NCBI RefSeq assembly: GCF_008153345.1
Contig: NZ_CP042818.1
Location: 2,232,001-2,296,000, forward strand
Reading direction: 5' to 3'
Source of the DNA: Treponema phagedenis
Lineage (GTDB): Bacteria; Spirochaetota; Spirochaetia; Treponematales; Treponemataceae
Length of the DNA stretch: 64,000 nucleotides
Below are positions 4,067-61,410 of this stretch, in pieces. How positions within the stretch are numbered: the stretch's first letter is position 1; every line of letters begins with the position of its first letter. The notes under the pieces were generated by a model that was given only the letters and a program-made list of their open reading frames with translations, was not told where the DNA came from and made no database searches. Made by a program: the position numbers and the translations under genes.

Positions 4067-4483
4067 ATGAATACGGAATGTTTTTATGCAATTGTATTGC
4101 CGGGTAATTTGCTTTCTGTTTTGTATGAGGAGCAACGGCTTTTTCAAACGCTGATAGAATCTCAGTTTAGAAAAATGCCTCCTTTTTTGAAATATGAGAA
4201 AAGATATGATCAAAGCGTATTAAAAATCTCCGCGCCTGAATTACGAGACGGGTATTTGATTAGGCAATGCAGTATGCAGGGCGAAAAACTTTCAGAATGT
4301 TTTGTTTTAGGTTTTGGCGGTGTGCATGCCGAAAAACTGATAAAAACCATGCCTGAGTTAAAAGCGCAGAGTAAGGTGCAAAATATTTTTCTCCCCTTGC
4401 AGTGCAGCAATTGGCGGTTAGCAAAAGTAGAACTTACACATTACGGTACCTATGGGATATGCTGGAAACTGCGGGAACTATGA
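4067..4483 (+). CDS. Hypothetical protein, third gene of the pentapeptide/MBL operon
   Basis: I do not recognise this 138-residue protein. It has no signal peptide, membrane segment or metal motif. Its composition is mixed, with several aromatic residues and basic stretches, and it ends KLREL. It begins 2 nt after the MBL-fold gene stop, so it is almost certainly co-transcribed with it. Codon use matches its neighbours, which supports a real gene. Confidence 0.65.
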   Translation: MNTECFYAIVLPGNLLSVLYEEQRLFQTLIESQFRKMPPFLKYEKRYDQSVLKISAPELRDGYLIRQCSMQGEKLSECFVLGFGGVHAEKLIKTMPELKAQSKVQNIFLPLQCSNWRLAKVELTHYGTYGICWKLREL

Positions 4484-4536
4484 TAGCGGGTTTTTTGATG
4501 ACTCAATCCATTTTTCATGCATCCTGAATTGTCAAG

Positions 4537-5100
4537 TTAAGCTAGACACGGATACACAAAATCCATAAAAACTTCTATTGGTGTTTTGTATCCCAGGGAT
4601 TTTCGTGGGATGTTGTTTCTGTAATTGGCTACCGAAATAATCTCCGATTCTTCACTTATATTGAAGTCGCTCTTCTTTGGCAGTCCGTCTCTTCTGAGTA
4701 ACCCGTTTGAGTTTTCGTTCATTGTGTATTGACTCGGAAAAACGGAGTCTGGAAAAAAGATAGAGCTGTCATGCAGGGACAGATGTTTCTCTAATTAGAG
4801 AACTCCTTGCCGCAATCAAAGGTTATCGACTTGAACAGGTTTCTCGGTAATTTTTAAACCGGTGAATAAGCCTTTGTTAGACTGCAGCTAATCTTTTGTT
4901 CCTGTCGATTTCAGTGCGATAATTACTTTTGAAACACGCTCCGCAAGAGTGATGACCGTACTTTTATGATCTTTAGCCGACAATTTGACATTATTCAAAA
5001 TTATCCGAACTCGTTCTCATAGCGGAAAAATTCGTTTGATCAGTTGTACCGCGTGCGATAAAATACCTGTTTTCCCCTCCCCTGATAAAAGCATTTTTAT
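4537..5100 (-). pseudogene. IS30-family transposase remnant
   Basis: The minus strand at 4722-4537 encodes MNENSNGLLRRDGLPKKSDF... ending IPRKSLGYKTPIEVFMD, a classic IS30 transposase C-terminus (NENTNGLLRQ...PRKxLGYKTP). Further upstream other frames show TFDCGKEFS at about 4790-4840, matching the DNGKEF catalytic region, and VITLAERVSK at about 4900-4960, matching the first catalytic block. Frames are broken by stops and no intact ends are visible, so this is a decayed insertion sequence. The rest of 4484-5170 shows nothing else. Confidence 0.75.
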
Positions 5101-5170
5101 TCAGCTACCCCAGCGTAACTTCACGGGTGGTTAAAGAGCTTTATACCGCTTTACGTAGAAGAGATTTGCG

Positions 5171-5366
5171 TTAGGCGGACGGATGGCGGCGAGCGCTTTT
5201 TCAAAAGCGCGAAGCCGGATCCTTTTTGCGCGCCTAAAATAGCGCAAAAAGAGCCGCAGGCGATAGCCGGAGCCCGTAGTACGCCGGCGGTTTGTAAGTA
5301 CTGCGCTTCGGCAAACTTACGACTAAGCCGATGTTGAAAAATTTCAAACCGCAACGCCCGTATAGG
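5171..5366. repeat. Intergenic hairpin repeat family B, copy 2
   Basis: This is the partner of 2670-2866, with the same block order and the same terminal CAAACCGCAACGCCC. Internal hairpins include GCGCTTTT-TC-AAAAGCGC, TTTTTGCGC with GCGCAAAAA, and GTAAGT with ACTTAC around a GCTTCGGC loop. It lies just upstream of the rpsU promoter, whereas copy 1 lies upstream of the pentapeptide promoter. Confidence 0.7.
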
Positions 5367-5419
5367 TATAATTTTTATTTTTACTGCCTAAACCGCTTTG
5401 TTGATACATTATAAGCTGC

Positions 5420-5448
5420 TTGACAGTGCTGAATAAATTTGCTATCTT
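5420..5448 (+). promoter_or_regulatory. rpsU promoter
   Basis: A perfect TTGACA (5420-5425) is followed after 17 nt by TATCTT (5443-5448). A strong ribosome-binding site AGGAGGTGAG follows at 5477-5486, upstream of the GTG start, so this mRNA has a conventional leader. Confidence 0.7.
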
Positions 5449-5494
5449 TTTTATCTATATTAACGGTTCTACCGGTAGGAGGTGAGTATTTTAA

Positions 5495-5704
5495 GTGGCT
5501 TATATAACTGTCGATGATTCTGAAAATTTAGAAAAAGCGATTAAACGTTTTAAGAGACAGGTAGAAAAAGAAGGCATTATTCGTGAGTGGAAAAAAAGAG
5601 AATATTATGAAAAGCCTTCAACTATTCTTAACCGAAAAAAGAAGGCGTTACAGCGTAAACTAATGAAAAAAAACCGCAAAACATACGATTCAAAAGCGTA
5701 TTAA
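5495..5704 (+). CDS. rpsU: 30S ribosomal protein S21
   Basis: This 69-residue basic protein has the S21 pattern: [20 protein letters not shown], then REYYEKPS, then a lysine/arginine-rich tail. S21 sits on the 30S platform near the anti-Shine-Dalgarno region and assists initiation. The start is GTG at 5495, set by the AGGAGG site 8 nt upstream. It has its own promoter and terminator and is monocistronic. Confidence 0.96.
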
Positions 5705-5724
5705 TTGCGTGTTTTAACGGAAGA

Positions 5725-5762
5725 AGTGCGGAATGTTCATTTGGACAACCGCGCTTTTTTTT
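5725..5762 (+). terminator. rpsU rho-independent terminator
   Basis: AGTGCGG (5725-5731) pairs with CCGCGCT (5749-5755) with one G-T wobble. An inner TGTTC/GGACA helix extends it, and a run of eight T follows. Confidence 0.8.
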
Positions 5763-5765
5763 ATA

Positions 5766-5795
5766 TTGACTTAACCATATAAAATCCTGTATCTT
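5766..5795 (+). promoter_or_regulatory. def-fmt promoter (leaderless type)
   Basis: TTGACT (5766-5771) is followed after 18 nt by TATCTT (5790-5795). Only 6 nt separate the -10 box from ATG 5802 and no Shine-Dalgarno exists. Confidence 0.6.
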
Positions 5796-5801
5796 TTAAG
5801 T

Positions 5802-6305
5802 ATGGAAATATTGTATTTAGGGGAAGAGTCTTTGAGGCAAAAATCAATTCCCGTTGAAAATATAACTGAAGAAATCAAAGATTTGGTACAAAAGATGTTT
5901 GTTACCATGAAAATAAAAGACGGAATTGGGCTTGCCGCCCCGCAAATAGGAAAGAATATTCGACTCTTTGTTACAGGAGTAAATAATGAACAACGGGTAT
6001 TTATCAACCCTCAAATTATAGAAACATCGGAAAAAGTTTGCTCGTATGAAGAGGGCTGTTTAAGCATTCCTCAAATATATGAAAAGGTTGTGCGCCCCGA
6101 AACTGTTACGGTACAATATCAAAATATTGACGGCAGACGAAAAACGCTTCAGGCAACCGGTTTGCTCGCCCGTGTTATTCAACATGAAAACGATCATTTA
6201 GACGGCGTATTGTTCATTGACAGAATAGACGAAAAGCTGCGAGAAGAAGCGATTAAACTTTTTGAAAAAAAGAAAAAACCAATAAAGAAAAAGGCTGCTG
6301 TTTGA
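5802..6305 (+). CDS. def: Peptide deformylase
   Basis: This metalloenzyme removes the N-formyl group from nascent proteins. All three family motifs are present: GIGLAAPQIG (41-50), EEGCLS (83-88, metal-binding Cys) and QHENDH (127-132, His128 and His132 bind metal and the catalytic Glu lies between). Length 167 aa, with a lysine-rich C-terminal tail. It is first in an operon with fmt, overlapping it as TGATG, so the formylating and deformylating enzymes are co-expressed. Its message is predicted to be leaderless. Confidence 0.96.
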   Translation: MEILYLGEESLRQKSIPVENITEEIKDLVQKMFVTMKIKDGIGLAAPQIGKNIRLFVTGVNNEQRVFINPQIIETSEKVCSYEEGCLSIPQIYEKVVRPETVTVQYQNIDGRRKTLQATGLLARVIQHENDHLDGVLFIDRIDEKLREEAIKLFEKKKKPIKKKAAV

Positions 6306-7273
6306 TGCTGAAAATACTCTTTGCGGGAACCCCTGAATGTGCGGTTCCCGTTTTACATGCTATCGCACAAAAGCATCATATAGTCGGCATTTTAACGCGC
6401 CCGCCCGCTGCAGTCGGCAGATCAAAAAAACTTATTCCTTCCGCTGTTGCACTTGCAACGGAAGTATTAAAATCAGAAAAACGCATAAGCCCTGCCGCCC
6501 CTCTTTTTACCCCCGAGAAGCTGAATAAGGATGTAAGAGAAGCAATAGCAGCAGTATCGCCGGATGTCATGGTATGTTTTGCATACGGAAAAATATTCGG
6601 GCAAAGCATGCTTGATTTATTTCCTCTAGACGCAATCAACATTCACCCCTCATTATTGCCAAGGTGGCGCGGCAGTACTCCGGTGCCTGCCGCCATTTTA
6701 GCCGGCGACACCAAAACCGGCGTTACCGTACAGCAAATGGCGCTCGAAATGGATGCGGGGGATATCCTTGCACAATGTACAATTCCGCTCGACGGATCTG
6801 AAACAGCGGAAAGTCTTTTAAACCTTTGTGCGCAAAAATCTGCGGACTTAACACTCTCCGTTTTGCAAAAGATAACAGATAAAACTCTTTCTCCGATGCC
6901 GCAAGATCATTCAGCGGCAACTTTTTGCGGAATGCTTACGAAGGAAATGGGCTTAATAAACTGGCACAATTCCGCTGAGGAAATCGATAGGAGACATCGG
7001 GCTTTTGTGCCGTGGCCCGGAACCTTTACGTATAAAAACAACGAAAAACTTTCTATTCAGGCGCTTGCAATTGCGACGTCGGAAAATACTCAGAATGCAG
7101 AGCCGGGAACTATTTTGACTGCGGATAAAAAAAACGGCATTTTAGTGCAAACGGGAAAAGGAATCATTTCTCTTATACAATTGCAGCGAACGGGGAAAAA
7201 AAGCCTCTACTGGAAAGATTTCTTAAACGGTTCTGCAGAATTTTTGACAGGAAAATTCAATGCATCTTTATGA
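6305..7273 (+). CDS. fmt: Methionyl-tRNA formyltransferase
   Basis: It transfers a formyl group from 10-formyl-tetrahydrofolate to initiator Met-tRNA. The N-terminal transferase domain starts LKILFAGTPECAVPVL and contains the catalytic stretch INIHPSLLPRWRGSTPVP followed by MDAGDIL. A C-terminal OB-like domain includes RAFVPWPGTF. ATG 6305 shares one base with the def stop (TGATG); a TTG one codon earlier is less likely. Length 322 aa, normal for the family. Confidence 0.95.
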   Translation: MLKILFAGTPECAVPVLHAIAQKHHIVGILTRPPAAVGRSKKLIPSAVALATEVLKSEKRISPAAPLFTPEKLNKDVREAIAAVSPDVMVCFAYGKIFGQSMLDLFPLDAINIHPSLLPRWRGSTPVPAAILAGDTKTGVTVQQMALEMDAGDILAQCTIPLDGSETAESLLNLCAQKSADLTLSVLQKITDKTLSPMPQDHSAATFCGMLTKEMGLINWHNSAEEIDRRHRAFVPWPGTFTYKNNEKLSIQALAIATSENTQNAEPGTILTADKKNGILVQTGKGIISLIQLQRTGKKSLYWKDFLNGSAEFLTGKFNASL

Positions 7274-7314
7274 CAGAAGTATCTATATACCCGGCACAAC
7301 GCTTTTTGATAGCT

Positions 7315-7525
7315 TGATCCGTTTTTAATTTATTCTTATACAAATCTTAAAAAAATTATATAAATAAGAGTCCGACACAACACAACGGTAAGCAAACTTA
7401 CCATAGGGCAAAGCGTTAATAATTTGCCTCCGCTTTGCCAACGAGTTTAAAAGCTTCAATTTTACAAAACAGTGTTGATGCTTTTAAACATCGTTTGGAA
7501 TTGGGCAAGGTGGCGGTTTGACATA
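7315..7525 (-). repeat. Truncated MITE/hairpin-cassette repeat, reverse orientation
   Basis: On the minus strand this reads AATTCCAAACGATG, then the H1 hairpin (GTTTAAAAGC and GCTTTTAAAC around a 25-nt loop), CTCGTTGGC, then a CTATGGTAAGTTTGCTTACCG segment, GTGTCGGACTC and an AT-rich end with AATTAAAAACG. The outer left terminal repeat seen in fuller copies is missing. It fills the gap between fmt and the nifJ terminator. Confidence 0.7.
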
Positions 7526-7550
7526 AGATCAATTTTAATTTTTAAATAAA

Positions 7551-7589
7551 AAGCCCCTTTCGATTAACTAATCAAAAGGGGCTTTTTTT
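7551..7589. terminator. Bidirectional terminator between fmt and nifJ
   Basis: AGCCCCTTT (7552-7560) pairs with AAAGGGGCT (7575-7583), with an A run before and a T run after. It can therefore terminate transcription from either side, most usefully nifJ on the minus strand. Confidence 0.8.
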
Positions 7590-7605
7590 ACAACCTCAAA
7601 AAGAA

Positions 7606-10600
7606 TTAGAAGGGTCTGTCAGCAAGATACTTATATTCTTGCCACTGCCTTCTTGTTTTCTCTTCCGCGGCTTTTAAGAGCATTTCTGCCCGTTCGGGAT
7701 TTGCATTTTTCAATGTCTTAAAGCGAACTTCTTTGTACATAAAGTCTGCAAGTTTGAAATCAGGCTCCTTGCTGTCAAGCTGGAAGGGATTTTTACCTGC
7801 CGCAACAAGACGCGGGTCATAGCGGTAAAGCGGCCAAAGGCCCGAACTCACCGCTTCTTTCTGATGAGACATTCCCTTGGTCATGTTAATTCCGTGAGAG
7901 ATACAATGGCTGTATGCAATAATAATTGCAGGGCCGTCATAACTTTCAGCTTCACGGAATGCCTTAATTGTCTGAGACATGTTTGCGCCCATTGCAATTC
8001 TGGCAACATAGACATATCCGTAACTCATCGCCATCATACCGAGGTCTTTTTTGCTTGTGGTTTTACCCGCAGCGGCAAATTTTGCAACCGCACCGATCGG
8101 GGTTGCCTTTGACATCTGCCCGCCGGTATTTGAGTACACCTCTGTATCAAGTACGAGTACCTTAATATTTTTTCCCGATGCAAGCACGTGATCCAAACCG
8201 CCATAGCCGATATCGTATGCCCAGCCGTCACCGCCGAAAATCCAAACGGAGCGGCGTACCAAATGATCCGTTAACGAAAGCATTTCTTTTGCAAGCGGAT
8301 CGGAGCTCTTTTCCAGCTCTTTTCGCAAGTCCGCAACAAAGGCTCTTTGGTCTTCAACAGCGGAATCTTCTTCCTGAGTATTCGCTAAAATTTTCGCAAT
8401 GACATCTGCCGCAATATTTTTGTCTTTTAATTGGCCAGCTACCTCGCGTGCATATTCGGCAAGTTTATCGCTGGTAAGCCGCATTCCGTAGCCGAATTCG
8501 GCGGCATCTTCAAACAGTGAATTTGACCATGCAGGGCCTCGTCCGTCGGCACGTTTTGCATACGGAGTAGTCGGCAAGTTACCGCCGTAGATTGAAGAAC
8601 ACCCGGTTGCGTTTGCAATAATTGCGCGGTCTCCCGCAATCTGGCTCATCAGTCTGATATACGGTGTTTCGCCGCAGCCGGGACAGGCTCCCGAGAACTC
8701 AAACAGAGGTCTCTTCATGGAAACACCTTTTGGAACACTTAAGTTAAGTTTTCGCGCATCCGGATCCGGAAGATTTACAAAAAATTTCCAGTTCTTTGAT
8801 TCTACCTCACGGTGTTCTACAAAACTTTCCATGTTGATTGCTTTGCGCGTCGGATCAGCCTTATTCTTTGCCGGACACTGCTCAACACAAAGGGCACAAC
8901 CGGTGCAGTCTTCAGGGGACACTTGAATAGTAAAGGCAGCGTTTTCAAACTCTTTACCTTTATAGGCACATGATTTAAATTCCTTCGGAGCCTTATCCAG
9001 TTCTTTTTTATCGTATGCTTTCATGCGAATAACCGCATGGGGACAAACCATTACGCATTGCCCGCACTGGATACAAACCTCGGAATCCCAAATCGGAACA
9101 TGCTCGGCAATACTGCGTTTTTCGTATTGAGTGGTTCCCGTCGGGAAGGTTCCGTCAACCGGCAACTGACTTACTTTCAGCTCATCGCCCTTATTAAGAG
9201 CCATCTCACCCAGAACGTTTTGTACGAATTCGGGAGCATCGGCGGTCATTGCCGAATGGCGAGTTACTTTGCTGTCGGCTGTTTTCGGATACTCTACTTT
9301 TTCAAGTCCCGCAAGAGCCATATCAATTGTTGTAATATTTTTCTGAACAATTTCGGCACCTTTTTTGCCATACGTTTTTTCGGTAAATTTCTTGATAAGA
9401 CCTACCGCCTCATCTTCGGGAAGAATACCGAATATTTTAAAGAAAGCTGTCTGCATGATGACATTGATACGTGTGCCCATTCCCGCTTTTTCCGCAATAG
9501 ACATTGCATCAATTACATAAAACTTTGCTTCTTTTTCGATAATTTGTTTTTGTACCTCAACCGGTATTTTTTGCCAAATCTCATCCTTACCATAGGGAGC
9601 ATTTAAAAGGAAGGTACCGCCCTTTTTCAGGGTTTTGAGCATATCAAAGGTTTCAAGATAGGTAAATTTATGGCAAGCCATAAAATCGCTTTGGGTAATA
9701 AGATAGGGCTTTCTGATTTTGTTCTTTCCAAATCGAAGGTGAGAGATGGTAAAACCGCCGGATTTTTTACTGTCATAGGCAAAGTATGCCTGTGCATTAT
9801 TATCCGTTGCCTCACCAATAATTTTAATAGAGTTCTTGTTTGCTCCTACCGTACCGTCGGCACCGAGCCCGTAGAACATTGCCTGATGCATATCCTTATC
9901 ATCAAGATGGAAACTGGGATCATAATCAAGGCTGGTATGAGTAACATCATCAGTAATACCGACTGAAAAATTCGCAATCTTCTTTCCGCTCAAATTATCA
10001 AAAACACCTTTTACCATTGCAGGGGTAAATTCTTTAGAGCCAAGTCCGTATCGTCCTCCAAGGATAAGCGGATAATGCGTAAAGGGGCATTCTTTTTTAA
10101 ACTGCATTTCTCCAATTGCGGTGCGAACATCCTCGTATAGGGGCTCGCCAAGAGCTCCGGGTTCCTTTGTTCTGTCAAGAACCGCAATGGCGGTAACTGT
10201 TGAAGGAAGAGCCTTTACAAAGGCTGAGGCATCAAAAGGACGATACAGGCGTACCTTTACAAGCCCGCATTTTTCTCCTTTTTCATTTAGCGCATCAACA
10301 GTTTCTTCTACTGTATCCGCACCTGACCCCATTAGAATAATAACTTTTTCGGCATCGGGGGCTCCGTAATAGTCAAACAGATGATATTGTCTACCGGTAA
10401 GTTCGGCAAACTTATCCATTGTTTTTTGTACAATTGCCGGAGTTGCCTGATAATACTTATTCACAACCTCCCTGCTTTGGAAGTATACATCGGGATTTTG
10501 TGCGGTTCCGCGAATCATCGGCTTTTCGGGTGTTAAACCGCGCGTGCGATGTTCGCGTACTAACGTATTATTTACCATTTTTTGCATAACTTCATACGAA

Positions 10601-11160
10601 ACTTCTTCTACTTTTTGAATTTCGTGTGATGTTCTAAAGCCGTCAAAAAAATGCAGAAACGGAACCCGCGCTTCCAAAGTTGCGGCATGCGCAATAACCG
10701 CAGAATCCATAACTTCCTGCACGCTGTTGGAAGCAAGCATTGCCCAGCCGGTTTGACGGCAGGACATTACATCCTGATGATCACCGAAAATAGACAAAGC
10801 ACTGGTAGCCAATGCTCTTGCAGCCACGTGGAAAACCGTACTGGTCAATTCTCCGGCAATTTTATACATATTCGGAATCATAAGGAGCAGTCCTTGTGAA
10901 GCGGTAAACGTTGATGACAAAGCACCGGTTGTTAAAGCACCGTGAACAGCTCCGGATGCGCCGCCTTCGGACTGCAACTCTACAACAGAGGGCACCGTTC
11001 CCCAAATATTTTTCCGCCCTTGAGCCGAATACTCATCGGCAAGCTCTCCCATCGGACTTGACGGGGTAATAGGATAAATCGCGATAACCTCGCTTAAAGC
11101 ATGGGCAACATAGCCGGCGGCTGTGTTACCGTCAATCATTACAAGATTTTTTTCAGACAT
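7606..11160 (-). CDS. nifJ: Pyruvate:ferredoxin (flavodoxin) oxidoreductase
   Basis: This single-chain 1184-residue enzyme oxidises pyruvate to acetyl-CoA and CO2, reducing ferredoxin or flavodoxin. Domain order is the canonical fused one. The N-terminal pyrimidine-binding domain has YPITPSSPMGELAD near residue 30. Domain II, the gamma-type domain and the EKR region follow. Two [4Fe-4S] motifs, CIQCGQCVMVCP and CTGCALCVEQCP, lie near 690-760. The C-terminal thiamine-diphosphate domain has CPGCGETPY, GGDGWAYDIGYGG and NTGGQMSKATP. A good AAAGGACGG ribosome-binding site precedes the ATG. This is the central energy enzyme expected of an anaerobic treponeme. It is monocistronic, with a terminator just downstream. 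Confidence 0.97.
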   Translation of the reverse strand: MSEKNLVMIDGNTAAGYVAHALSEVIAIYPITPSSPMGELADEYSAQGRKNIWGTVPSVVELQSEGGASGAVHGALTTGALSSTFTASQGLLLMIPNMYKIAGELTSTVFHVAARALATSALSIFGDHQDVMSCRQTGWAMLASNSVQEVMDSAVIAHAATLEARVPFLHFFDGFRTSHEIQKVEEVSYEVMQKMVNNTLVREHRTRGLTPEKPMIRGTAQNPDVYFQSREVVNKYYQATPAIVQKTMDKFAELTGRQYHLFDYYGAPDAEKVIILMGSGADTVEETVDALNEKGEKCGLVKVRLYRPFDASAFVKALPSTVTAIAVLDRTKEPGALGEPLYEDVRTAIGEMQFKKECPFTHYPLILGGRYGLGSKEFTPAMVKGVFDNLSGKKIANFSVGITDDVTHTSLDYDPSFHLDDKDMHQAMFYGLGADGTVGANKNSIKIIGEATDNNAQAYFAYDSKKSGGFTISHLRFGKNKIRKPYLITQSDFMACHKFTYLETFDMLKTLKKGGTFLLNAPYGKDEIWQKIPVEVQKQIIEKEAKFYVIDAMSIAEKAGMGTRINVIMQTAFFKIFGILPEDEAVGLIKKFTEKTYGKKGAEIVQKNITTIDMALAGLEKVEYPKTADSKVTRHSAMTADAPEFVQNVLGEMALNKGDELKVSQLPVDGTFPTGTTQYEKRSIAEHVPIWDSEVCIQCGQCVMVCPHAVIRMKAYDKKELDKAPKEFKSCAYKGKEFENAAFTIQVSPEDCTGCALCVEQCPAKNKADPTRKAINMESFVEHREVESKNWKFFVNLPDPDARKLNLSVPKGVSMKRPLFEFSGACPGCGETPYIRLMSQIAGDRAIIANATGCSSIYGGNLPTTPYAKRADGRGPAWSNSLFEDAAEFGYGMRLTSDKLAEYAREVAGQLKDKNIAADVIAKILANTQEEDSAVEDQRAFVADLRKELEKSSDPLAKEMLSLTDHLVRRSVWIFGGDGWAYDIGYGGLDHVLASGKNIKVLVLDTEVYSNTGGQMSKATPIGAVAKFAAAGKTTSKKDLGMMAMSYGYVYVARIAMGANMSQTIKAFREAESYDGPAIIIAYSHCISHGINMTKGMSHQKEAVSSGLWPLYRYDPRLVAAGKNPFQLDSKEPDFKLADFMYKEVRFKTLKNANPERAEMLLKAAEEKTRRQWQEYKYLADRPF

Positions 11161-11349
11161 AAAACCGTCCTTTGATAAGTAGTGTGTGAATATCTATATT
11201 CTATCTATATGTTAATGATAAAATATACCTACCTATAGGATACTATCTTTATCCCTTTTTTTCAAGAGCGAATTATTCTATATTTTGATTAAATTCTTCA
11301 ATAAATATGTACGGAATTATGTACGAAAAAAAGTGAAAGACTGGACGCT

Positions 11350-11660
11350 CTTTATACTAATCGAAGTATTAACAAACAGCCTACGGATTTAAGCATGCCC
11401 CTACTCAATTCCAAACGATGTTTTAAAGCATCAGCACAAAACTGTAAAATTGAAGCTTTTAAACTCGTTGGCGAAGTTGCTGTAAATTTTCAAAACTTCG
11501 CCCCTGCTCAATTCCAAACGATGTTTTGCCTGTACTCCAGCGTAAACAGGCAAAACTCGTTGGCGAAGTTGCTGTAAATTTTCAAAACTTCGCCCTATGG
11601 TAAATTACTTGCCGTTGCGCCGTGTCGAGCTCTTTTTCATGATTAGATGAATTAAATAAT
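11350..11660 (+). repeat. MITE/hairpin-cassette repeat with two cassettes
   Basis: Two tandem units follow AATTCCAAACGATG. The first has the stem GTTTTAAAGC with GCTTTTAAAC. The second, in the same flanks, has GTTTTGCCTG with CAGGCAAAAC (about 11523-11557). Each is followed by CTCGTTGGCGAAGTT and its pairing arm AACTTCGCC. The array ends CTATGGTAAATT...CCGTTGCGCCGTGTCGAGCTC and decayed AT-rich sequence. The rest of 11161-11803 holds only nifJ upstream sequence and, near 11743, a weak TTGATT-type promoter candidate for feoA. Confidence 0.7.
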
Positions 11661-11803
11661 TGAGATATCAAAAGAACGGTTAGCGGGTTTTATCTTTTTT
11701 TCATTCTTTTTGCAAAAAGTTTGCAAAAATGCTTTTTACTACTTGATTAAAATATCCGTTTATAGTACTTTTAGCACAGAGATATTGTTACCTGGAGTTT
11801 ACA

Positions 11804-12031
11804 TTGATACCATTGATTGTTTTAAAGACAGGTGAAAAGGCTTCGGTGTTAAAATTTGACGGAACAGGAGCCGAGTTTACCCGATTACGCAGCTTGGGAA
11901 TTGACGTTAACACGGAACTAACTGTTGTAACCTCGCAAGCGGATAAAAAGGGGCCGATGCTGTTGTTGGTAAACGGTGCAAAGTATGCAATTGATTATAA
12001 CTTGGCTTCTAAAATTTTTGTGCTTATATAG
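11804..12031 (+). CDS. FeoA-domain protein (first copy)
   Basis: This 75-residue protein has an SH3-like FeoA fold: a charged beta-strand start, TRLRSLGIDVNTELTVV in the middle and GPMLLLVNGAKYAIDYNLASKIFV at the end. FeoA proteins bind or regulate the ferrous iron transporter FeoB. The start is TTG at 11804, supported by GGAG 7 nt upstream; no ATG is available. It is separated from the second FeoA by 157 nt containing its own promoter-like site, so it may be a separate transcript. Low sequence identity to the second copy suggests distinct roles. Confidence 0.85.
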   Translation: MIPLIVLKTGEKASVLKFDGTGAEFTRLRSLGIDVNTELTVVTSQADKKGPMLLLVNGAKYAIDYNLASKIFVLI

Positions 12032-12099
12032 AAACCGAATCTTAAGTTCGATTCAAGTTTCGCCTTGTATTTGCGAAACATTGCTGATTAACTTGCAGT

Positions 12100-12134
12100 T
12101 TATAAGACTTTAAGACGTGGCTTTGTCTTATAAT
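12100..12134 (+). promoter_or_regulatory. Inverted repeat overlapping a perfect -10 box upstream of feoAB
   Basis: TTATAAGAC (12100-12108) and GTCTTATAA (12125-12133) are perfect inverted arms separated by 16 nt. The right arm overlaps TATAAT (12129-12134). No good -35 is seen. This looks like an operator for a metal-responsive repressor, but the regulator identity is inference. The spacing also allows an RNA hairpin. Confidence 0.5.
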
Positions 12135-12188
12135 GTTAAAAAAATTAAGGGATTATCAACATCCGGAAAAATTTTTTAGGAGAATGAA

Positions 12189-12419
12189 ATGACGCTTGAT
12201 GAGCTGGAACAGGGTAAAAATGCAGTAATTGAAAATTTAGAAATAACAGGCAGCACCTTGCAGCGGCTTATAAGTTTAGGGTTTACCCCCGGAGCTGAAG
12301 TCTCAGTTGTTAGAAAAGCGCCGTTTTTAGATCCCTTCGATATTTCTATTTGCGGTTCTCTTGTGGCAGTACGAAGAGATGAGGCAAAAAGAATTATTAT
12401 CAGAGAGTTAGCCGAATGA
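12189..12419 (+). CDS. feoA: FeoA-domain protein (second copy, coupled to feoB)
   Basis: This 76-residue FeoA protein contains LQRLISLGFTPGAEVSVV and a C-terminal VAVRRDEAKRIIIREL. It is preceded by TTTTTTAGGAGAATGAA, giving a good ribosome-binding site for ATG 12189. Its stop overlaps the feoB start as ATGA, the usual tight FeoA-FeoB arrangement, so this is the copy most likely to partner FeoB directly. Confidence 0.9.
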   Translation: MTLDELEQGKNAVIENLEITGSTLQRLISLGFTPGAEVSVVRKAPFLDPFDISICGSLVAVRRDEAKRIIIRELAE

Positions 12420-15241
12420 AACAGGACCAGATACATATCGCATTTGCGGGGCAGCCAAACTCAGGGAAGTCAACTTTGTTTAACATGATGACTGGCGCCC
12501 GCCAGCATGTCGCAAATTATCCGGGTATTACCGTAGAGAAAAAAACAGGCAATTATCAAGCGTTTGGACAATCCGTATTGATAACCGACCTGCCCGGAAC
12601 CTATAGTCTTACCTCATACTCTCCCGAAGAAAGGGTTTCCCGGAATTTTATTCTTTTTGAAAAGCCAAATCTTTTAGTCAATATTACCGATGCGTCAAAT
12701 TTAGAGCGGCATTTATATCTTACGTTTCAGCTTTTGGAAATGCAGTGCCCTGTTATCATGTATTTAAACAAAACGGATATTGCAACATATCAAGGGCTTA
12801 AAATCGATATCGATAAATTGTCGCAAACGCTGGGTATTCCGATTATTGCCGGTTCGGCAAAAAGGAAAGAGCATGCACAGGAACTTAAACAGTGCATAGC
12901 AGAAACTACGGGACATACACAAAACCCGTATATGCTTTCGTACGGAAAAGATATGGAAGCCTGTCTTGCAGCAATTGTTGAACGGTTGCAAAAGGCTCAA
13001 AAAAATGCCGAAGATGCGGTGCCGTTGCGTTGGCTTGCAATTAAACTTTGCGAAAATGATTCCGCCGTGCGCAATGAGCAAAAAGAAAAATTTGAAGAAT
13101 TCGATTCTATTTTACAATATATAAGCGAGCTTGAAGCACAGCACAAAGAAAAACATAAACACAGCTTTGAAATTGAAATAGCCCTTGCCAGAGCGGGCGC
13201 CGCAAAAAAAATTATTGCCGATTGCGTTACCAAAGTTGCGGCTGATAAAAAAACAGTTGAGCGGGTACGTTTAAAAAGAAGAATCTTTGAAGGGCTTTCC
13301 GCTCTCACACTCTTTTTTGTTACCTTTCAGATTCTTGATGCGGTTTTGGTAATGTTTCCCGGCGTGTTTCAACACAATAGCGTGCGGCTTTGTATAAATC
13401 TTCTGCTTTCAGGGATTTTTACCGGCGGGGCTGCTTTTATCTATGTGAAAGGCGGAGAAAATGCCGTCAATGCCACCGACCGGGTTGATAAAGTCTTGTG
13501 CCACCGCGTGTTCGGTATTCTTATTCTTGTGGAACTGGTGCTGGTCTTTTATTGGATAACCGTTATTCTCGGATATAAGATGACTGATAAGGTTTTTCCG
13601 GTTTTTAAATTTTTCCGTTCTATTGTATCGCAACTTATTCCCGCTCAAGGTTTAATAAGTGAAGGACTGTTACGCGGTCTTTTTTTAAACGGTATTATTG
13701 ACGGCGCGATTATGATTCTAAACTATGTGCCGATTTTCTTCTGCCTTTTTGCGCTTATTGCCTTTTTAGAAGATGTGGGTTATATGGCACGCCTTGCTTT
13801 TATAATGGATAGGATTCTTCGTAAGTTCGGATTACACGGGCAGTCTACCTTACCGATGATTCTCTCCGGGGTTATTATGGGCGGCTGTGTTGTTCCCGGC
13901 GTTATGTCAACCCGCACAATTCGTGATAATAAATCCCGGTTAGTTACCATTCTGATTTTGCCGCTTTTAAATTGTATGGCTAAGATTCCTTTTTATGTGC
14001 TTATTACCGGAATCTTTTTTGTGCGCTATCAGTGGCTTGTGCTCGGCGGCATTTCTTTTATTACGTTATTGGTAGCACTCATTGTGGCAAAGTATTTTAG
14101 TTTATATGTGGTGCAAGGCACGCCGGAACCATTTGTGCTTGAATTGCCCGCATATAGTTTGCCGACTGTGCGCGGAGTGCTTACCAGAACTTTTGAGCGA
14201 TTGTGGAGCTTTATCAAAAAAGTTGCTACAACCGTCGTTGCCGTTTCGGTTGTGATTTGGGCAGGCGTCAGTTTCCCCGCAATGGGTGAAAAGGAACAAG
14301 CAGTATTTAATACCGAAAGGGACACCTATATTCACAATTTTGTACGCAGCCTGAACAATTCCTATGCTCCGTATTTTACCTCTGAAAAAGGATTTTTAGA
14401 TTATCAAAATCTTACGGAAAGAATGTATTTGCTTGAAACACTTACCTCTTTCGGCGGAGAAAAGGCGGCGGCGCGCAGCATGAATAGACTCTTTTTGGAA
14501 AACCCCGAAATGACCAAAATTGCTTTGCGCGGAAAACTTGAGCTTGGCGATACTATTCACGCATTTAAAGACTACTTTACCCGGTATGCGGCAGCAGAAA
14601 AAGATTTTATAAACGCTTATGCCAAAACACCCGACTTTCAAAAACCGATTATGAAATCCGCCTTTTACGGCTATTGGCAGCGCATGAATCCTTTCTTTTT
14701 TGCAATTGTGCGTACGGGCTCTATCAGCATAAGCGGCACAAGCGTGGTTGACCGCGATGCGGCGGCGATGACAAGATCATTACGCACCGCTTTTGCAGAC
14801 CTAAAATTGATCAGTGTACATTATCACCGCGAAACACTGGAACATTCAGCGCTTGGGTACCTTGGTAAAGGTATGGAGCCGGTTACCAAATACGCAGGTT
14901 TTGACTGGAAAATAAATATCGCAATACTCGGATCTTTTGCGGCAAAGGAAGCCCTTGTTTCAACCTTAGGCACTATTTACAGTGTGGAGTCCGCAAGCGA
15001 GGACAGCGGAAAGCTTTTGGAAGCACGGATTCAGGATAAAGAAACCGGTATGACTCCTTTGGACGGACTTACCATAATGATTTTAATCGCTTTATTCCCG
15101 CCCTGTATTGCAACAATGATTGCAACAAAAACAGAAACTCAAAGTATCGGTTGGACAGCGTTCAGTGTAATATATCCGGTTGTCTTAAGTTCGCTGGTTG
15201 CGGTGTTTGTCTTCCAGTTCGGAAGGCTTTTAGGATTTTAA
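12416..15241 (+). CDS. feoB: Ferrous iron transporter FeoB with about 190-residue insertion
   Basis: The N-terminal G domain has G1 GQPNSGKST (13-21), G3 DLPGTYSL near 60, G4 NKTD near 121 and a G5-like GSAK. Transmembrane gates follow, including LPMILSGVIMGGCVVPGVM and the conserved C-terminal FDWKINIAILGSFAAKEALVSTLG. At 941 aa it is much longer than the roughly 650-770 aa usual for the family. The excess lies at about residues 620-810, a mostly hydrophilic, helical-looking segment between two membrane spans where FeoB normally has a short extracytoplasmic loop. It is followed by exported metal-binding-type genes, suggesting the loop docks a periplasmic partner (inference). Confidence 0.93.
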   Translation: MKQDQIHIAFAGQPNSGKSTLFNMMTGARQHVANYPGITVEKKTGNYQAFGQSVLITDLPGTYSLTSYSPEERVSRNFILFEKPNLLVNITDASNLERHLYLTFQLLEMQCPVIMYLNKTDIATYQGLKIDIDKLSQTLGIPIIAGSAKRKEHAQELKQCIAETTGHTQNPYMLSYGKDMEACLAAIVERLQKAQKNAEDAVPLRWLAIKLCENDSAVRNEQKEKFEEFDSILQYISELEAQHKEKHKHSFEIEIALARAGAAKKIIADCVTKVAADKKTVERVRLKRRIFEGLSALTLFFVTFQILDAVLVMFPGVFQHNSVRLCINLLLSGIFTGGAAFIYVKGGENAVNATDRVDKVLCHRVFGILILVELVLVFYWITVILGYKMTDKVFPVFKFFRSIVSQLIPAQGLISEGLLRGLFLNGIIDGAIMILNYVPIFFCLFALIAFLEDVGYMARLAFIMDRILRKFGLHGQSTLPMILSGVIMGGCVVPGVMSTRTIRDNKSRLVTILILPLLNCMAKIPFYVLITGIFFVRYQWLVLGGISFITLLVALIVAKYFSLYVVQGTPEPFVLELPAYSLPTVRGVLTRTFERLWSFIKKVATTVVAVSVVIWAGVSFPAMGEKEQAVFNTERDTYIHNFVRSLNNSYAPYFTSEKGFLDYQNLTERMYLLETLTSFGGEKAAARSMNRLFLENPEMTKIALRGKLELGDTIHAFKDYFTRYAAAEKDFINAYAKTPDFQKPIMKSAFYGYWQRMNPFFFAIVRTGSISISGTSVVDRDAAAMTRSLRTAFADLKLISVHYHRETLEHSALGYLGKGMEPVTKYAGFDWKINIAILGSFAAKEALVSTLGTIYSVESASEDSGKLLEARIQDKETGMTPLDGLTIMILIALFPPCIATMIATKTETQSIGWTAFSVIYPVVLSSLVAVFVFQFGRLLGF

Positions 15242-22129: not shown

Positions 22130-22748
22130 AGTGTTTTTTGATAAGTTAATTGTATTTTTTTAATACATCTTACCCAAAATGTAAAAAATTTTATAAAAAA
22201 GAGTTCGACACGGCGCAACGGTGAGTAATTTACCATAGTGATGCTGAATCCGCAGTCCCTTATTGTTGATACTTCGATTTTTATAACAGGAAGTTAATTA
22301 CAAAACGCTACACTAGTGTAACGTTTTTTTGATAAGTCGATTAATTTTTTTTAATACATCTTACCAAAAACGTAAAAAATTTTATAAAAAAGAGCCCCTG
22401 TTTAGTTTTTGCCGTCCATGGCAAAAACTAAACCACGAGTTTTAAAGCTTCAATTTTACAGTTTTGTGTTGATGCTTTAAAACATCGTTTCTGCTTGGAA
22501 CCACGGGCGTCCGTGCCCGTTCTGATTTTGCCGTCCATGGCAAAAACTAAACCACGAGTTTTAAAGCTTCAATTTTACAGTTTTGTGTTGATGCTTTAAA
22601 ACATCGTTTCTGCTTGGAACCACGGGCGTCCGTGCCAGTTCTGATTTTGGCAACGGTGAGTAATTTACCATAGGAAAGCTGAATCCGCAGTCCCTTATTG
22701 TTGATACTTCGATTTTTATAACAGGAAGTTAATTACAAAACGCTACAT
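22130..22748 (-). mobile_element. Two head-to-tail MITE copies, one carrying a duplicated hairpin cassette
   Basis: The first element runs from about 22130 (TAGTGTTTTTTGATAAGTTA) to CAAAACGCTACACTAG near 22315. A second starts at the shared junction (ACTAGTGTAACGTT) and ends CAAAACGCTACATAAG at about 22749. The second holds two tandem copies of a 121-bp cassette. Each copy consists of GTTTAGTTTTTGCC/GGCAAAAACTAAAC, the H1 hairpin with a 25-nt loop, and GGAACCACGGGCGTCCGTG. All are in reverse orientation. The element end overlaps the thiN stop codon. Confidence 0.75.
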
Positions 22749-23408
22749 AAGATTGAAGCCGCAGCGGTATTCTTTAAGCGGAGAAAGGAAAACTAAAAAC
22801 CTTCCGCTTTGTACGGCAAGCTCTATGGGTTTGCCGTCAGAGCGGTTACTCAGGCTGACCTGTCCCGATTGCCAGTTTACCGTATCAAGTTCCCAATGCA
22901 AACCGCGCGAAGAGATAAAACCGCACGGCTCACCGGCGGGGAAAACAGAAATGGCGGCGTTTTCGGCTCCGTCTATTCTGAGCGTTTTGACGGCGCAGTC
23001 CTCACCAACGCAATACACAAGCCCTGCATCATAGAGCCAAAGCCGCGGAGGCTTTTTTTCTCTGAATATCCGTGCAACCGATAAAAAGTGATCAGCGCGC
23101 CCGCCGCCGGCTCCGCAGATAATAATATCCTGTGCACCCTTTTCCTTTGCCGCAAAAACCGCAAGCTCAGTATCGGTAAAATCCTTATCGCAAGGGTGCA
23201 GCTGCACCTGCGCTTCTGGGTAGGCGTGCAGTAATGCCTTATTTTGCAAACTGTCCATATCGCCCAGAATAATATCGGGCGTAAAGCCGGCGGATGCAGC
23301 CGCCTCAAGCCCCGAGTCCGCAGCGATTATAATACTGTCGGGCAAAAAGTATTTTGAGGCAATCGCATAATCGGGCTGACTGCCGCCGGTAATAATTATC
23401 GCATTCAT
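22743..23408 (-). CDS. thiN: Thiamine pyrophosphokinase
   Basis: It converts thiamine to thiamine diphosphate, the cofactor of the nifJ product. Motifs are ADSG (30-33), GDMDS (48-52), the magnesium/ATP stretch KDFTDTELA near 80 and GGRADH near 103. Length 221 aa, as usual. The last codons ATG TAG lie within the terminal repeat of the adjacent MITE, so insertion redefined the C-terminus. Its ATG directly follows the stop of the NtrC-type regulator, placing it third in a kinase-regulator-thiN operon. Confidence 0.92.
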   Translation of the reverse strand: MNAIIITGGSQPDYAIASKYFLPDSIIIAADSGLEAAASAGFTPDIILGDMDSLQNKALLHAYPEAQVQLHPCDKDFTDTELAVFAAKEKGAQDIIICGAGGGRADHFLSVARIFREKKPPRLWLYDAGLVYCVGEDCAVKTLRIDGAENAAISVFPAGEPCGFISSRGLHWELDTVNWQSGQVSLSNRSDGKPIELAVQSGRFLVFLSPLKEYRCGFNLM

Positions 23409-26069: not shown

Positions 26070-26104
26070 ATGTTTTGGCAATCTCAATTGAAAGCCAAAA
26101 CTCG
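26070..26104. repeat. Solitary H1-type hairpin module
   Basis: ATGTTTTGGC and GCCAAAACTCG flank a 14-nt loop. The outer ATG and CTCG match the H1 cassettes of the arrays, but the stem differs (GTTTTGGC/GCCAAAAC) and no other MITE sequence surrounds it. The remaining 26018-26271 shows nothing else I recognise. Confidence 0.5.
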
Positions 26105-29197: not shown

Positions 29198-29388
29198 AGA
29201 GCCGGCAAAAAATGCGTAAAACATTAGAGCCATATTTATTTCGGAAGCGTAAAAAAATAAATTTGAAAGAGCTTGTTTTTCTTTAGATGTGAATTTGCAA
29301 AATTTTGCATAAAACTCAACACAAGAGAATAAAAAGTTTGATAGCCGTATTTGTTAGGCAAAATAACAGTATCCGGAATAATTCTCAT

Positions 29389-29686
29389 TAGTATAGCGTT
29401 TTGTAATCAACTTCCTTGTTGGGTTAATCAAAACATTAACAGGTGTCTTGCAGATTTAACATTGCTATGGTAAATTGCCCACCGCTACTCAATTCCAAGC
29501 GATGTTTAAAAGCATCAGCACAAAACTGTAAAATTGAAGCTTTAAAACTCGTTGGCGAAGTTAAAGCGAATTTCTAAAACTTCGCCCTTGCGCCGTGTCG
29601 GACTCTTTTTTATAACAGGAAGCTTTAAAACTCGCAAGGCATAATTTTGCCATTTTTATAAGATGTATTAAAAAACGCTGTATTGT
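29389..29686 (+). mobile_element. MITE with one H1/H4 hairpin cassette
   Basis: It begins TTAGTATAGCGTTTTGTAAT and ends ATTAAAAAACGCTGTATT, matching the family's inverted ends. The interior has CTATGGTAAATTGC, an H1 hairpin (GTTTAAAAGC/GCTTTAAAAC), CTCGTTGGCGAAGTT with its AACTTCGCC arm, and GTGTCGGACTCTTTT. A second end-like sequence (CAGAACACCGCAATAG) lies near 29706-29722, hinting at a nested or decayed copy. The rest of 29163-29857 holds the murG promoter and AT-rich sequence with no recognisable gene. Confidence 0.7.
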
Positions 29687-29857
29687 GCAGCAGTAAGTTA
29701 ATTCCAGAACACCGCAATAGCTTCATAATGACTCATACCTATTCCCCTAAAGCGCATATCTTTTTTGCCGATGCTGATAGTACGTTATTATTTTGTAATT
29801 TTGATTATAAAAATTAAAGCAATATTAATTCAGGAAAATTCTATTGGGAGGCTTATT

Positions 29858-33722: not shown

Positions 33723-34032
33723 TGTAGCGTTTTGTAATTAAGTTGCTGTTACCTTAATCGGAGCATCACCAACAAAAGCGTGCGGATTCAGTATCACTAT
33801 GGTAAATTGCTCACCGTTGTCAAACTCAGAACGGGCACGGACGCCCGTGGTTCCACGCAGAATTGAGTTTGAAAACTACCACAGCGCACTCGGAGTTTTC
33901 AAACTCACAGGTTTCATTTTGCCACGGACGGCAAAATGAAACCGTTGTGTCAAACTCTTTTTTATACAATTTTTTACGTTTTTGGTACGATGTATTAAAA
34001 AACGAATTGACTTATTAAAAAACGCTGTACTA
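33720..34032 (+). mobile_element. MITE carrying three different hairpins
   Basis: The ends are TAATGTAGCGTTTTGTAATT (left) and TTATTAAAAAACGCTGTACTA (right), inverted and TA-bordered. The interior after CTATGGTAAATTGCTCACCG has an H3 hairpin (GAACGGGC-ACGGAC-GCCC...GTTC), an unusual H1-position hairpin AGTTTGAAAACT/AGTTTTCAAACT, and an H2 hairpin GGTTTCATTTTGCC/GGCAAAATGAAACC. It fills the recO/RseC-like gap. Confidence 0.78.
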
Positions 34033-43732: not shown

Positions 43733-43814
43733 ATTTTTCCTTCCTTATAGTACGTTTTGATGCGCGAAACCTATTAAAGTATACCGATAAGCATAAAAAA
43801 GCACAAGCAGTTTG

Positions 43815-44290
43815 TACTGACCCCCATTTTTTGGACACGAAAGTTATTTTTTTAAGCAACCTGCGTTCTAAAATCAACAGGTGACTTCCAACCCAATTTT
43901 TTTTGAATTCTTTCATTGTTAAAGAATTCAATGTACTTACCTATAAGTTCTTCCATCTGTTTATAAGTGAGTAATCCATTTTCCAATGTACCATAATAAC
44001 CACTCTCACACTTAATGGTTCCAAAAAAGTTTTCTATACAGGCATTATCCCAACAGTTTCCACGCCGGCTCATGCTTTGTATCATTCCAAGTTCAGTGAG
44101 TTTTTCTCGGTACGCATGTGATGTATACCGTTGCTCCTTGATCGCTATGTAGCAGGACTCCTTCAAGACTATATTTTTCGGCTCGGTGCGTAACGGTGTC
44201 AACAGCAAGTTGTGCATCCACATGCCGTGAACACCTCACACCCATACGTGTGAACACTCTGCCTACATAATGGCAGACGGGATGCGGATG
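43815..44290 (-). pseudogene. IS150-type (IS3 family) element remnant, orfB C-terminal part
   Basis: The plus-strand left end TGTACTGACCCCCATTTTTT is a typical IS150-group terminus. The minus strand from 44223 encodes a C-terminal orfB piece (SMSRRGNCWDNACIENFFGT, then YIEFFNNERIQKKLGWKSPV), including the DDE glutamate in NFFGTIK. The preceding part lies in another frame (VDTVTHRAEKYSLEGVLLHS DQG), showing a frameshift. The rest of the element is missing, replaced by hairpin-repeat sequence at about 44285. Confidence 0.85.
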
Positions 44291-44395
44291 TAAGCATTCC
44301 CATGGTAAACTGCCCACCGTTGCTCAATTCCAAACGATGTTTTGCCGGTCACTCCAACGTAACCAGGCAAAACTCGTAGGCGAACCAAAGGTAGA
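44285..44395 (+). repeat. Partial hairpin-cassette repeat
   Basis: TAAGCATTCCCATGGTAAACTGCCCACCGTTG is followed by CTCAATTCCAAACGATG and an H1-position hairpin, GTTTTGCC and GGCAAAAC around a 20-nt interior, then CTCGTAGGCGAACC. The right half of the family consensus is absent. It is joined directly to kinase sequence. Confidence 0.65.
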
Positions 44396-46479: not shown

Positions 46480-46960
46480 AAAAGATCTCAACACAGCCTA
46501 ACGGTTGGTAATTTAGCATAGGAATGTTTAAAGCGGTAAGCGTTATTGTTGATACATTCTTTAGTAGTAACTTAATTACAGAATGTTTTCTCCTCTTGTG
46601 CAAATTGCGTGAAATTTAGAAATTACCCCGATTTTGCCTGCCGCACATAACAATTTCTCTTAAGAGAAAAATGAGTTGCGGTTAAAGAAAAAGCATTTCG
46701 CGGTCAATACAAAACTGTAAAATTGAACCTTTTAAACTCGCAGCCACTGTAAACAAGAATAGCAAACATTACATTCAGAACCGCCACGGACGGCGGTAGT
46801 TCCAAACAGAAGCGACGTTTTAAAGCAAAGTAATTTGCAAAGCTTTAAAACTCGCAAGGCATAATTTTGACAAGGACGTCAAGATTAAGTCGTGGTGGTT
46901 CCAAACAGACGGTTTAGTTTTTGCCATGGATGGCAAAAACTAACCTGGACTCTTTTTTAA
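46480..46960. repeat. Composite MITE/hairpin-cassette region downstream of nrdD
   Basis: At 46480-46585 there is a decayed reverse MITE (CAACACAGCCTAACGG, GGTAATTTAGCATAGG, AATTACAGAATGTTTT). From about 46705 forward cassettes follow: CTGTAAAATTGAA with TTTTAAACTCGCAG, an H3 hairpin GAACCGCC-ACGGAC-GGCGG, an H1 hairpin CGACGTTTTAAAGC/GCTTTAAAACTCG with a 15-nt loop, and an H2 hairpin TTTTGCC-ATGGAT-GGCAAAA, ending GGACTCTTTTTT. Nothing else is visible in 46432-47003. Confidence 0.65.
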
Positions 46961-55339: not shown

Positions 55340-56115
55340 TTGAACCCCGGAAAATTCCAAGCGATGGTTAAAAACTGTCGCACCTTTTGAATAGGAGTTT
55401 TTAAAAGCTATTGTTGGTATAACGTTTTGTAATTAACTTCCATATGTATTAATCAAAGCATCAACACTGTTTTGTAAAATTGAAGCTTTAAAACTCGCAG
55501 GTTTAGTTTTTGACACGGACGTCAAAATCAGAACAATGTAAAACGATGTTTAAAAACTACCACACCGACATAAATAGGAGTTTTTAAACTCGCAGCACTG
55601 ATTTAATCAAGAATACTAAAAATCAGGGCGTGGCGGTGGTTCCATACAGCAGCGATGTTTTAAAGCAAAAGTATTTGCAAAGCTTTAAAACTCGCAGGTT
55701 TGGTTTTACCACAGACGGCAAAATCAGAACGGGCACGGACGCCCGTGGTTCCAAGCAGAAGCGATGTTTAAAAGCATCAACACTGTTTTGTAAAATTGAA
55801 GCTTTTAAACTCGCAAGGTATAATTTTGCCAAGGACGTCAAAATCAGAACTGCCACGGATGGCAGTGGTTCCACGCAGAAGCGACGTTTTAAAGCAAAAC
55901 AATTTGTAAAGCTTTAAAACTCGCAGGGTTGGTTTTGACATGGACGTCAAAACCAACCCGTAGTGTCGAACTCAGAACTGCCACGGATGGCAGTGGTTCC
56001 AAGCAGAAACGAAGTTTTAAAAGCACAAATTTTTTCTAAGTGCTTTTAAAACTCGTGGTTTAGTTTTTGACACGGACGTCAAAACCAAACCGTTGTGTCG
56101 GAATCTTTTTAATAA
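55340..56115 (+). repeat. Large hairpin-cassette array (about five composite cassettes)
   Basis: The array is built from a repeating order: GAAGCGATG, H1 hairpin, CTCGCAGG, H2 hairpin (TTTTGAC-ACGGAC-GTCAAAA or TTTTGAC-ATGGAC-GTCAAAA), TCAGAAC, H3 hairpin (GGGC-ACGGAC-GCCC or TGCC-ACGGAT-GGCA), TGGTTCCAAGCA, then again. H1 stems and loops differ from unit to unit: GTTTTAAAGC with 25- or 15-nt loops, GTTTAAAAACT/AGTTTTTAAAC near 55549, GTTTTAAAAGCAC/GTGCTTTTAAAAC near 56012. A MITE-like TATAACGTTTTGTAATTAAC lies at about 55416, and the end has GTTGTGTCGGAATC. Frames across it repeat peptide motifs and are not genes. 55144-55340 holds mcp upstream sequence and a weak family C hairpin. Confidence 0.75.
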
Positions 56116-58264: not shown

Positions 58265-58830
58265 TAAAAGAGTTTTGCCTAATGCTCCAGCGTAAACAGG
58301 CAAAACTCGCAAGTGAAGCAAAAGGAAAGTACCAAAGTTTCGCCTATTGTTCTGCAACAGCCTTCTTGCTGCAAAACATTTACCCTATGGTAAACTGCCC
58401 ACCGTTGTCAAACTCAGAACGGGCACGAACGCCCGTGGTTCCAAACAGACGGTTTAGTTTTTGCCATGGACGGCAAAACTCAGAACCACCACGGATGGCG
58501 GTGGTTCCACGCAGCAGCGATGTTTTAAAGCAAGACTATTCGTAAAGCTTTAAAACTCGTGGTTTAGTTTTTGACAAGGATGTCAAAATCAGAACTGCCA
58601 CGGATGGCAGTGGTTCCACACAGACGGTTTAGTTTTTGGCACGGATGTCAAAAATCAGAACGAGCACGGACGCCCGTGGTTCCAAACAGAAACGATGTTT
58701 TAAAGCAAAATAGTTTGTAAAGCTTTAAAACTCGTGGTTTAGTTTTTGCCACGGACGGCAAAAACTAAACCGTTGTGTCAAATTTTTTTTATAAAATTTT
58801 GTATGTTTTGTATAAGAGGTATTAAACACT
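58265..58830 (+). repeat. Large hairpin-cassette array downstream of miaA
   Basis: It begins directly at the miaA stop with GAGTTTTGCCT...AGGCAAAACTC, an H1-position hairpin. Then come CTATGGTAAACTGCCCACCG and alternating H3, H2 and H1 hairpins: GAACGGGC-ACGAAC-GCCC, TTTTGCC-ATGGAC-GGCAAAA, GAACCACC-ACGGAT-GGCGGTGGTTC, GTTTTAAAGC with a 15-nt loop (twice), and TTTTGAC-AAGGAT-GTCAAAA. It ends with a long palindrome GGTTTAGTTTTTGCC/GGCAAAAACTAAACC, GTTGTGTCAAATTT and an AT-rich tail with GTATTAAACACT. Confidence 0.75.
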
Positions 58831-61009: not shown

Positions 61010-61410
61010 TCATTAAAAAAGAGCCCGACACGGCGCAACGGTGAGTAAACTTACCATAGGCAAAATGGAACACTCGAATTTTTTCTGTCCAAAACTGTAA
61101 AATTGAAGCTTTAAAACTCGTAGGCGAAGTTATAGCAAATTTTTAAAGCTTCGCCCCTGTCAAAATTCCAAACGATGTTTTAAAGCATCAACACTGTTTT
61201 GTAAAATTGAAGCTTTAAAACTCGTAGGCGAAGTTATAGCAAATTTTTAAAGCTTCGCCCCTGTCAAAATTCCAAACGATGTTTTAAAGCATCAACACTG
61301 TTTTGTAAAATTGAAGCTTTAAAACTCGTAGGCGAAGTTATAGCAAATTTTTAAAACTTCGCCCCTGATCTTTTTTATAATATAGATGAATTAAAAAATC
61401 AGCTGAAAAT
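61010..61410 (+). repeat. Three tandem 104-bp hairpin cassettes with MITE flanks
   Basis: The left flank is an inverted MITE core (AAAAAGAGCCCGACACGGCG, CAACGGTGAGTAAACTTACC). From about 61066 a 104-bp unit repeats three times, the first copy partial: AATTCCAAACGATG, H1 hairpin with 25-nt loop, CTCGTAGGCGAAGTT, ATAGCAAATTTTTAAA and the arm GCTTCGCC. Copies 2 and 3 are nearly identical (phase markers at 61108, 61212, 61316). Of 60848-61435, the first 160 bases show nothing recognisable. Confidence 0.8.

Follow-up and report, generated by a model that had tools for sequence, protein, structure and literature searches.

The window analysed here, a stretch of 64,000 nucleotides, spans positions 2,232,001 to 2,296,000 of the Treponema phagedenis genome, a single contig of 3,372,116 bases, and contains arrays of short hairpins that were read directly both here and in another twelve 20-kb stretches from this genome. 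The typical array consists of tandem copies of a unit of about 110 bp with three hairpins in the order H3-H1-H2. With loops in square brackets, H3 has the form AACGGGC[ACGGAC]GCCCGTGGTTCCA and H2 the form stem[ANGGAC]stem, with a stem length of 7-15 bp, and the H1 between them has the form CGATG-stem-loop-stem-CTCG. On the forward strand, the H2 hairpin TTTTGAC[ACGGAC]GTCAAAA is located at 55508-55527 and the H3 hairpin ACGGGC[ACGGAC]GCCCGT at 55729-55746, followed by H3-H1-H2 units at 55849-55961 and 55977-56094, the first of which includes the full H2 hairpin GGGTTGGTTTTGAC[ATGGAC]GTCAAAACCAACCC at 55926-55959. Two more units are located on this strand at 58485-58599 and 58660-58774, the latter with an H2 of 15-bp stem at 58736-58771, and another at 33831-33947, while the array at 46780-46943 has H3 and H2 hairpins at 46780-46797, 46867-46882, and 46914-46943. 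On the reverse strand, a unit at 22396-22520 is accompanied by a second tandem unit at approximately 22503-22640.

The H3-H1-H2 unit is TD-2 RNA (Rfam RF03162) or a local variant of it. The gathering cut-off of this family, 48.7 bits, was exceeded by the units at 22396-22520 (59.5 bits), 58660-58774 (59.0 bits), 33831-33947 (55.4 bits), and 55977-56094 (51.3 bits), and those at 55849-55961 (48.0 bits) and 58485-58599 (47.7 bits) scored just below it. The Rfam model and the window agree in the three hairpins and their order, with covarying stems, and the consensus loops in Rfam are AuGGAu and AcGgAU. The units in the window differ from the model in that H1 is longer, the inner stem of H2 is GCC or GAC rather than GUAC, and the units are placed in tandem, often within a miniature inverted-repeat transposable element (MITE). 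TD-2 belongs to clan CL00124 together with TD-1 (RF03155), which contains H1 in the opposite orientation.

The arrays are present where the initial annotation had placed them, but several details were revised. Its four hairpin types in a regular order resolve into the three-hairpin unit and a separate array type, in which H1 is paired with a fourth hairpin, H4, and which lacks the GGA loop. Such arrays were read directly on the forward strand at 11397-11600 and 61066-61375, and neither of these two has a match in Rfam. In these arrays and in one more at 29384-29690, the H4 stems vary with their pairing kept, and the variants across the genome include GGCGAAGTT, GGCGAACC, and GGCAAAGCG. The H1 flanks CGATG and CTCG hold as the general form, but the stem AGTTTGAAAACT is flanked by TTGAG/CTCA, and the stem GTTTTGGC, although it exists, stands alone as a hairpin near 26072-26101 and lacks the CGATG flank. 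The H2 stems are often shortened to a half-palindrome in the tandem arrays, and the full-length form is mainly seen in the last copy. Neither the Rfam family, nor the CsrA motif in the loop, nor the MITE that carries many of the arrays had been recognized.

The MITE carrier and the distribution of TD-2

Many arrays in the T. phagedenis genome sit inside the MITE. Empty copies of this element are about 184-189 bp long, have terminal inverted repeats, and end in TATARCGTTTT.., and identical 4-bp flanks, taken as target-site duplications, were found in 14 of the 26 copies measured, so that short length, inverted termini, and target duplication are all in evidence. The YTAR-like duplication resembles that of the IS5 family. 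The hairpin modules take up the central part of the element, with CACCGTTG on one side and the GTGTCG..CTCTTTTTT end on the other. In the window, an empty copy without the hairpin module at 22133-22315 adjoins a filled copy at 22313-22749, both on the reverse strand; the latter contains the array at 22.4 kb and was identified from partial BLAST matches at its two ends and a match to the terminal inverted repeat. The unit at 33831-33947 is also located inside a filled copy, with ends resembling the inverted repeats at 33723 and 34029. Elsewhere in the genome, a MITE with hairpin modules follows directly after the csrA stop codon (near position 1,713,640 of the contig; 1720-1900 in the stretch read), and at 43800-44340 in the window, the remnant of an array lies next to a reading frame that resembles a transposase, by eye one of the IS3 type.

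With one empty copy as the query, at least 51 matches were obtained in the T. phagedenis genome, where 40 of 575 candidates were scored, and a single match of 21 bases in the rest of the genus. The MITE is thus local, but the hairpins are not. The H3 core CACGGAYGNCNGTGGTTCCA, with at most one mismatch, occurs in 372 copies in the T. phagedenis genome, as compared to none for the reversed control, and TD-2 matches were present in 32 of 60 sampled genomes of the family and in 39 of 119 of the order. Many Treponema genomes contain TD-2 in multiple copies. Most genomes of the T. denticola group and the congeners have TD-2 at or near the scoring limit, and it is absent from one of the seven genus genomes examined, which is 1.14 Mb in size. 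The comparisons below use stretches of sampled genomes, many of which were chosen because they contained TD-2 hits. The matches in other genera often retain ANGGAN on different stems, a tendency to be read with the fact that the search model itself favours GGA. A literature search retrieved no paper that links TD-2 to CsrA, nor any for TD-2 and Treponema, and neither TD-1 nor TD-2 is named in the main text of a 2010 paper that described 104 candidate RNAs.

Some of the distant matches lie on mobile sequences. An equal spacing of about 3.25 kb between TD-2 matches in two genomes was considered as a sign of a mobile element, but the contig looks like a prophage, and an ANGGAN hairpin is present in just one of the two matches. 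Two prophage-like contigs of another family (L292 at 7295 and L293 at 6540) contain the same hairpin, CATGAAAAAATGCC[ACGGAG]GGCATTTTTTCATG. Furthermore, genomes from two different genera share a block of about 10 kb at 91-97% identity (L194 at 3879-14427, and L226) that carries a TD-2-like hairpin, which suggests a recent transfer of the block.

Stem pairing, loop conservation, and module exchange

The initial annotation had claimed that the stems are exchanged with both arms changing together, and this was borne out. For a set of H2 hairpins picked by the loop and the upstream H3 flank, with the arms ignored, each 5' arm pairs with its own 3' arm at a mean of 9.23, 10.52, and 11.04 of 12 positions in three species groups. 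When the 3' arms were shuffled among the copies, the means dropped to 7.35, 6.45, and 7.93, with maxima of 8.09, 7.19, and 9.20 in 5000 permutations, and when the pairing partner was slid by 1-3 bases, only 2-5 of 12 positions paired. Among 69 congeneric H2 hairpins, retained only if at least 9 of 12 positions paired, non-Watson-Crick pairs account for 31 of 828, and three or four Watson-Crick types are seen in most columns. Mismatches in the H2-type stems, read on the GGA strand, are more often G-U than A-C (45 versus 25, p = 0.02, a value that is optimistic since the copies are related). The excess comes from two species groups, with 13 versus 16 in the denticola group, and H1 stems have no G-U excess.

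The loops of H2 and H3 are hexaloops of the form A-N-G-G-A-N, in which GGA is nearly fixed and positions 2 and 6 are free, a pattern described here for the first time. In 30 paired congeneric copies of H3 that were located by the 3' flank, GGA is present in all 30 and an A at the first position in 26, while the second position is C in 12, T in nine, A in six, and G in three. The same pattern of nearly fixed GGA and free flanking positions was obtained when H2 was chosen as the best hexaloop hairpin regardless of its loop. Of all perfect hexaloop hairpins with a stem of at least 7 bp in 304 kb of the T. phagedenis genome, 58 of 119 have an ANGGAN loop, as compared to 0 of 31 after shuffling. 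The H1 loops of the H3-H1-H2 units have no conserved motif. The stems would be free to change in matched pairs, since it is mainly the pairing and the loop that seem to be under constraint.

Comparisons of orthologous loci, a check that the initial annotation had named, revealed turnover at the level of modules. At one site in three species, the flanks are nearly identical, but H2 is GATGAAAAATGTAC[ACGGAT] in L232, GATGAAAAATATAC[AAGGAC] in L260, and GATGAAAATCGGAC[ACGGAT] in L247, with matched arms in each, and L232 also differs from the other two in H3 and H1. Between L260 and L247, the H2 stems differ by four changes on each arm, which points to replacement of a block rather than stepwise compensation. 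In another pair of orthologous loci, one contains a single unit (L214) and the other none (L216), and in a third pair (L236 and L254) the difference amounts to 188 bp, bounded by copies of a short repeat, with a chimeric, poorly paired hairpin retained in L254. These differences indicate that the variation is neither single-arm noise nor the result of whole-array duplication only. Recombination, or copying between paralogs, probably replaces hairpins or units as a whole, and point changes would persist when compensated. In another array, compared between two species (L246 at 6512-6607 and L257 at 6178-6273), three loops all differ at position 6, GGAT in one and GGAC in the other, possibly due to a shared mutational or conversion event.

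The initial annotation had listed three causes of the matched stems without choosing between them, and these are partly supported. Pairing may be generated by mutation, if one arm is rewritten from the other by replication slippage or template switching, in selfish repeats that simply persist. The very few mismatches in the long stems and the block replacement of four positions per arm agree with such a process, as does an H1 loop, about 1.5 kb into each of the loci L140 and L149, that reads AC in one and GT in the other, its reverse complement, as if inverted. Template switching may thus contribute, but it leaves unexplained why GGA is fixed and positions 2 and 6 are free in H2 and H3, but not in H1, across genera with different stems, and we consider it improbable as the main explanation. 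Selection on a folded strand, another of the three causes, is supported by the strong covariation and by loop columns that are fixed while the stems change.

CsrA binding as a candidate function

In the congeneric H2 hairpins, the inner stem is mostly GUAC/GUAC, with A-T at the second pair in 63 of 69, T-A at the third in 56, and G-C at the fourth in 57. Together with the ANGGAN loop, this gives RUACANGGANGU, which matches the consensus of CsrA ligands selected by SELEX, RUACARGGAUGU, mostly presented in six-base loops (PMC7652899). The motif occurs 84 times in the vincentii stretches and 40 times in the denticola stretches, and scrambled or reversed patterns 1-11 times. Hairpins exposing ANGGA are also the preferred targets of CsrA in sponge sRNAs (PMC7366521), and the arrays contain multiple hairpins of this kind. 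The explanation that we consider best, and towards which we lean, is that the TD-2 units are RNA-borne CsrA-binding hairpins that would serve as sponges or affect the RNA of which they are part. In both the first and the third hairpin of the unit, H3 and H2, an A-N-G-G-A-N hexaloop tops a stem that is usually closed by C-G, which makes each a candidate CsrA site, and the middle hairpin, H1, without a conserved loop, may be a spacer. Once transcribed, by read-through or from promoters of their own, each unit could capture CsrA, and the many dispersed copies might titrate the protein in the manner of CsrB and RsmZ in the gammaproteobacteria, or influence the carrying transcript.

The folded strand could also be DNA, with a protein that recognizes the ANGGA loop on a folded single strand and moves or recombines the modules in the way known from REP/RAYT or attC systems. 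The units are dispersed, gained and lost singly, randomly oriented to genes, and partly borne by the MITE, as would be expected of such modules. The fit of the loop and the inner stem to an RNA-binding consensus and the excess of G-U over A-C in two of the three species groups argue against it. Furthermore, no Y1 transposase (Y1_Tnp) was found in the genome of the window or in 13 TD-2-bearing relatives, which weakens the REP-type recombination that the initial annotation had suggested. We give this alternative little credence. Compared by eye to attC sites, the H1 arms, GTTTT..AAAAC, run opposite to the core ends RYYYAAC..GTTRRRY that enclose a cassette gene, and there is no gene between the tandem units.

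Ordinary 3'-end structures, such as terminators or RNA stabilisers below many genes, would account for the strong predicted RNA fold of the arrays (z = -5.9) and for the T-run near the MITE end. However, the orientation of the units to upstream genes is unbiased, a terminator needs no conserved loop sequence, and terminator-like sites are mainly found on the other strand, all of which makes this explanation very unlikely. The units show no preference for co-orientation with neighbouring genes (40 versus 30 in tandem intergenic regions), and a role specific to 3'UTRs was discarded due to this random orientation. Promoter-like sites are not enriched at the units, so that a promoter of their own likewise found no support. 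Given the random orientation and the lack of promoter enrichment, transcription of the GGA strand remains putative.

CsrA is encoded in all seven genus genomes and in 40 of the 41 other family genomes searched. With csrA in almost every family genome searched, finding it says little in favour of CsrA binding, and presence versus absence was dismissed as a discriminating test. The T. phagedenis CsrA is 41% identical to that of Escherichia coli, retains L4 and R44, and matches solved CsrA structures, and its gene follows fliW in the order flgL-fliW-csrA. In T. denticola, the cluster is flgN-flgK-flgL-fliW-csrA, and CsrA sites have been proposed near flaB1 and flaB2 (PMC9481697). Some observations count against CsrA binding or are not explained by it. 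The H2 stems of 7-15 bp appear long for CsrA ligands, as those from SELEX mostly have at most four contiguous pairs (PMC7652899). In the T. phagedenis genome, GUAC is lost, with inner stems of GCC/GGC or GAC/GTC and a single RUACANGGANGU in 304 kb. The H1-H4 arrays have no GGA loops, and in the draft genome G014, TD-2 matches are present while the search for CsrA gave no hit.

We tentatively extend the CsrA-binding explanation to a distributed sponge in treponemes, the capacity of which would be set by the copy number and transcription of the repeats rather than by one sRNA gene, although we regard this extension as rather doubtful. With the same reservation, and only jointly with it, the MITE may have amplified the repeats to about 370 H3 sites in the T. 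phagedenis genome. If the loops are CsrA sites, TD-2, for which Rfam lists no function, would gain a specific one, and the spirochaetes would have a CsrB-like layer of control; the literature on spirochaete CsrA that we examined covers FliW and flagellin targets and describes no sponge RNA. A regulatory binding site would then have been spread by repeat turnover and MITE amplification, with stems drifting in pairs, and the repeats would constitute a natural library for studies of CsrA specificity.

The BOX elements of Streptococcus pneumoniae provide one parallel, in that they are also modular repeats, vary in how many middle modules they contain, and have an RNA-like structure, but their sequence is unrelated to that of the treponeme units and they are not known to have a CsrA-type loop. 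The BrickBuilt MITE of Porphyromonas gingivalis is likewise intergenic, is bounded by terminal inverted repeats, and encloses a tandem array that varies (PMC4596501), but its unit is a 23-nt minisatellite, as compared to the treponeme unit of about 110 nt with three hairpins, which is more widely spread than its MITE. The sponge sRNAs CsrB/CsrC and RsmX/Y/Z likewise contain several ANGGA-loop hairpins per RNA. While these sRNAs come from dedicated genes, between one and a few in number, in the gammaproteobacteria, the candidate sites in the treponemes are hundreds of dispersed repeats.
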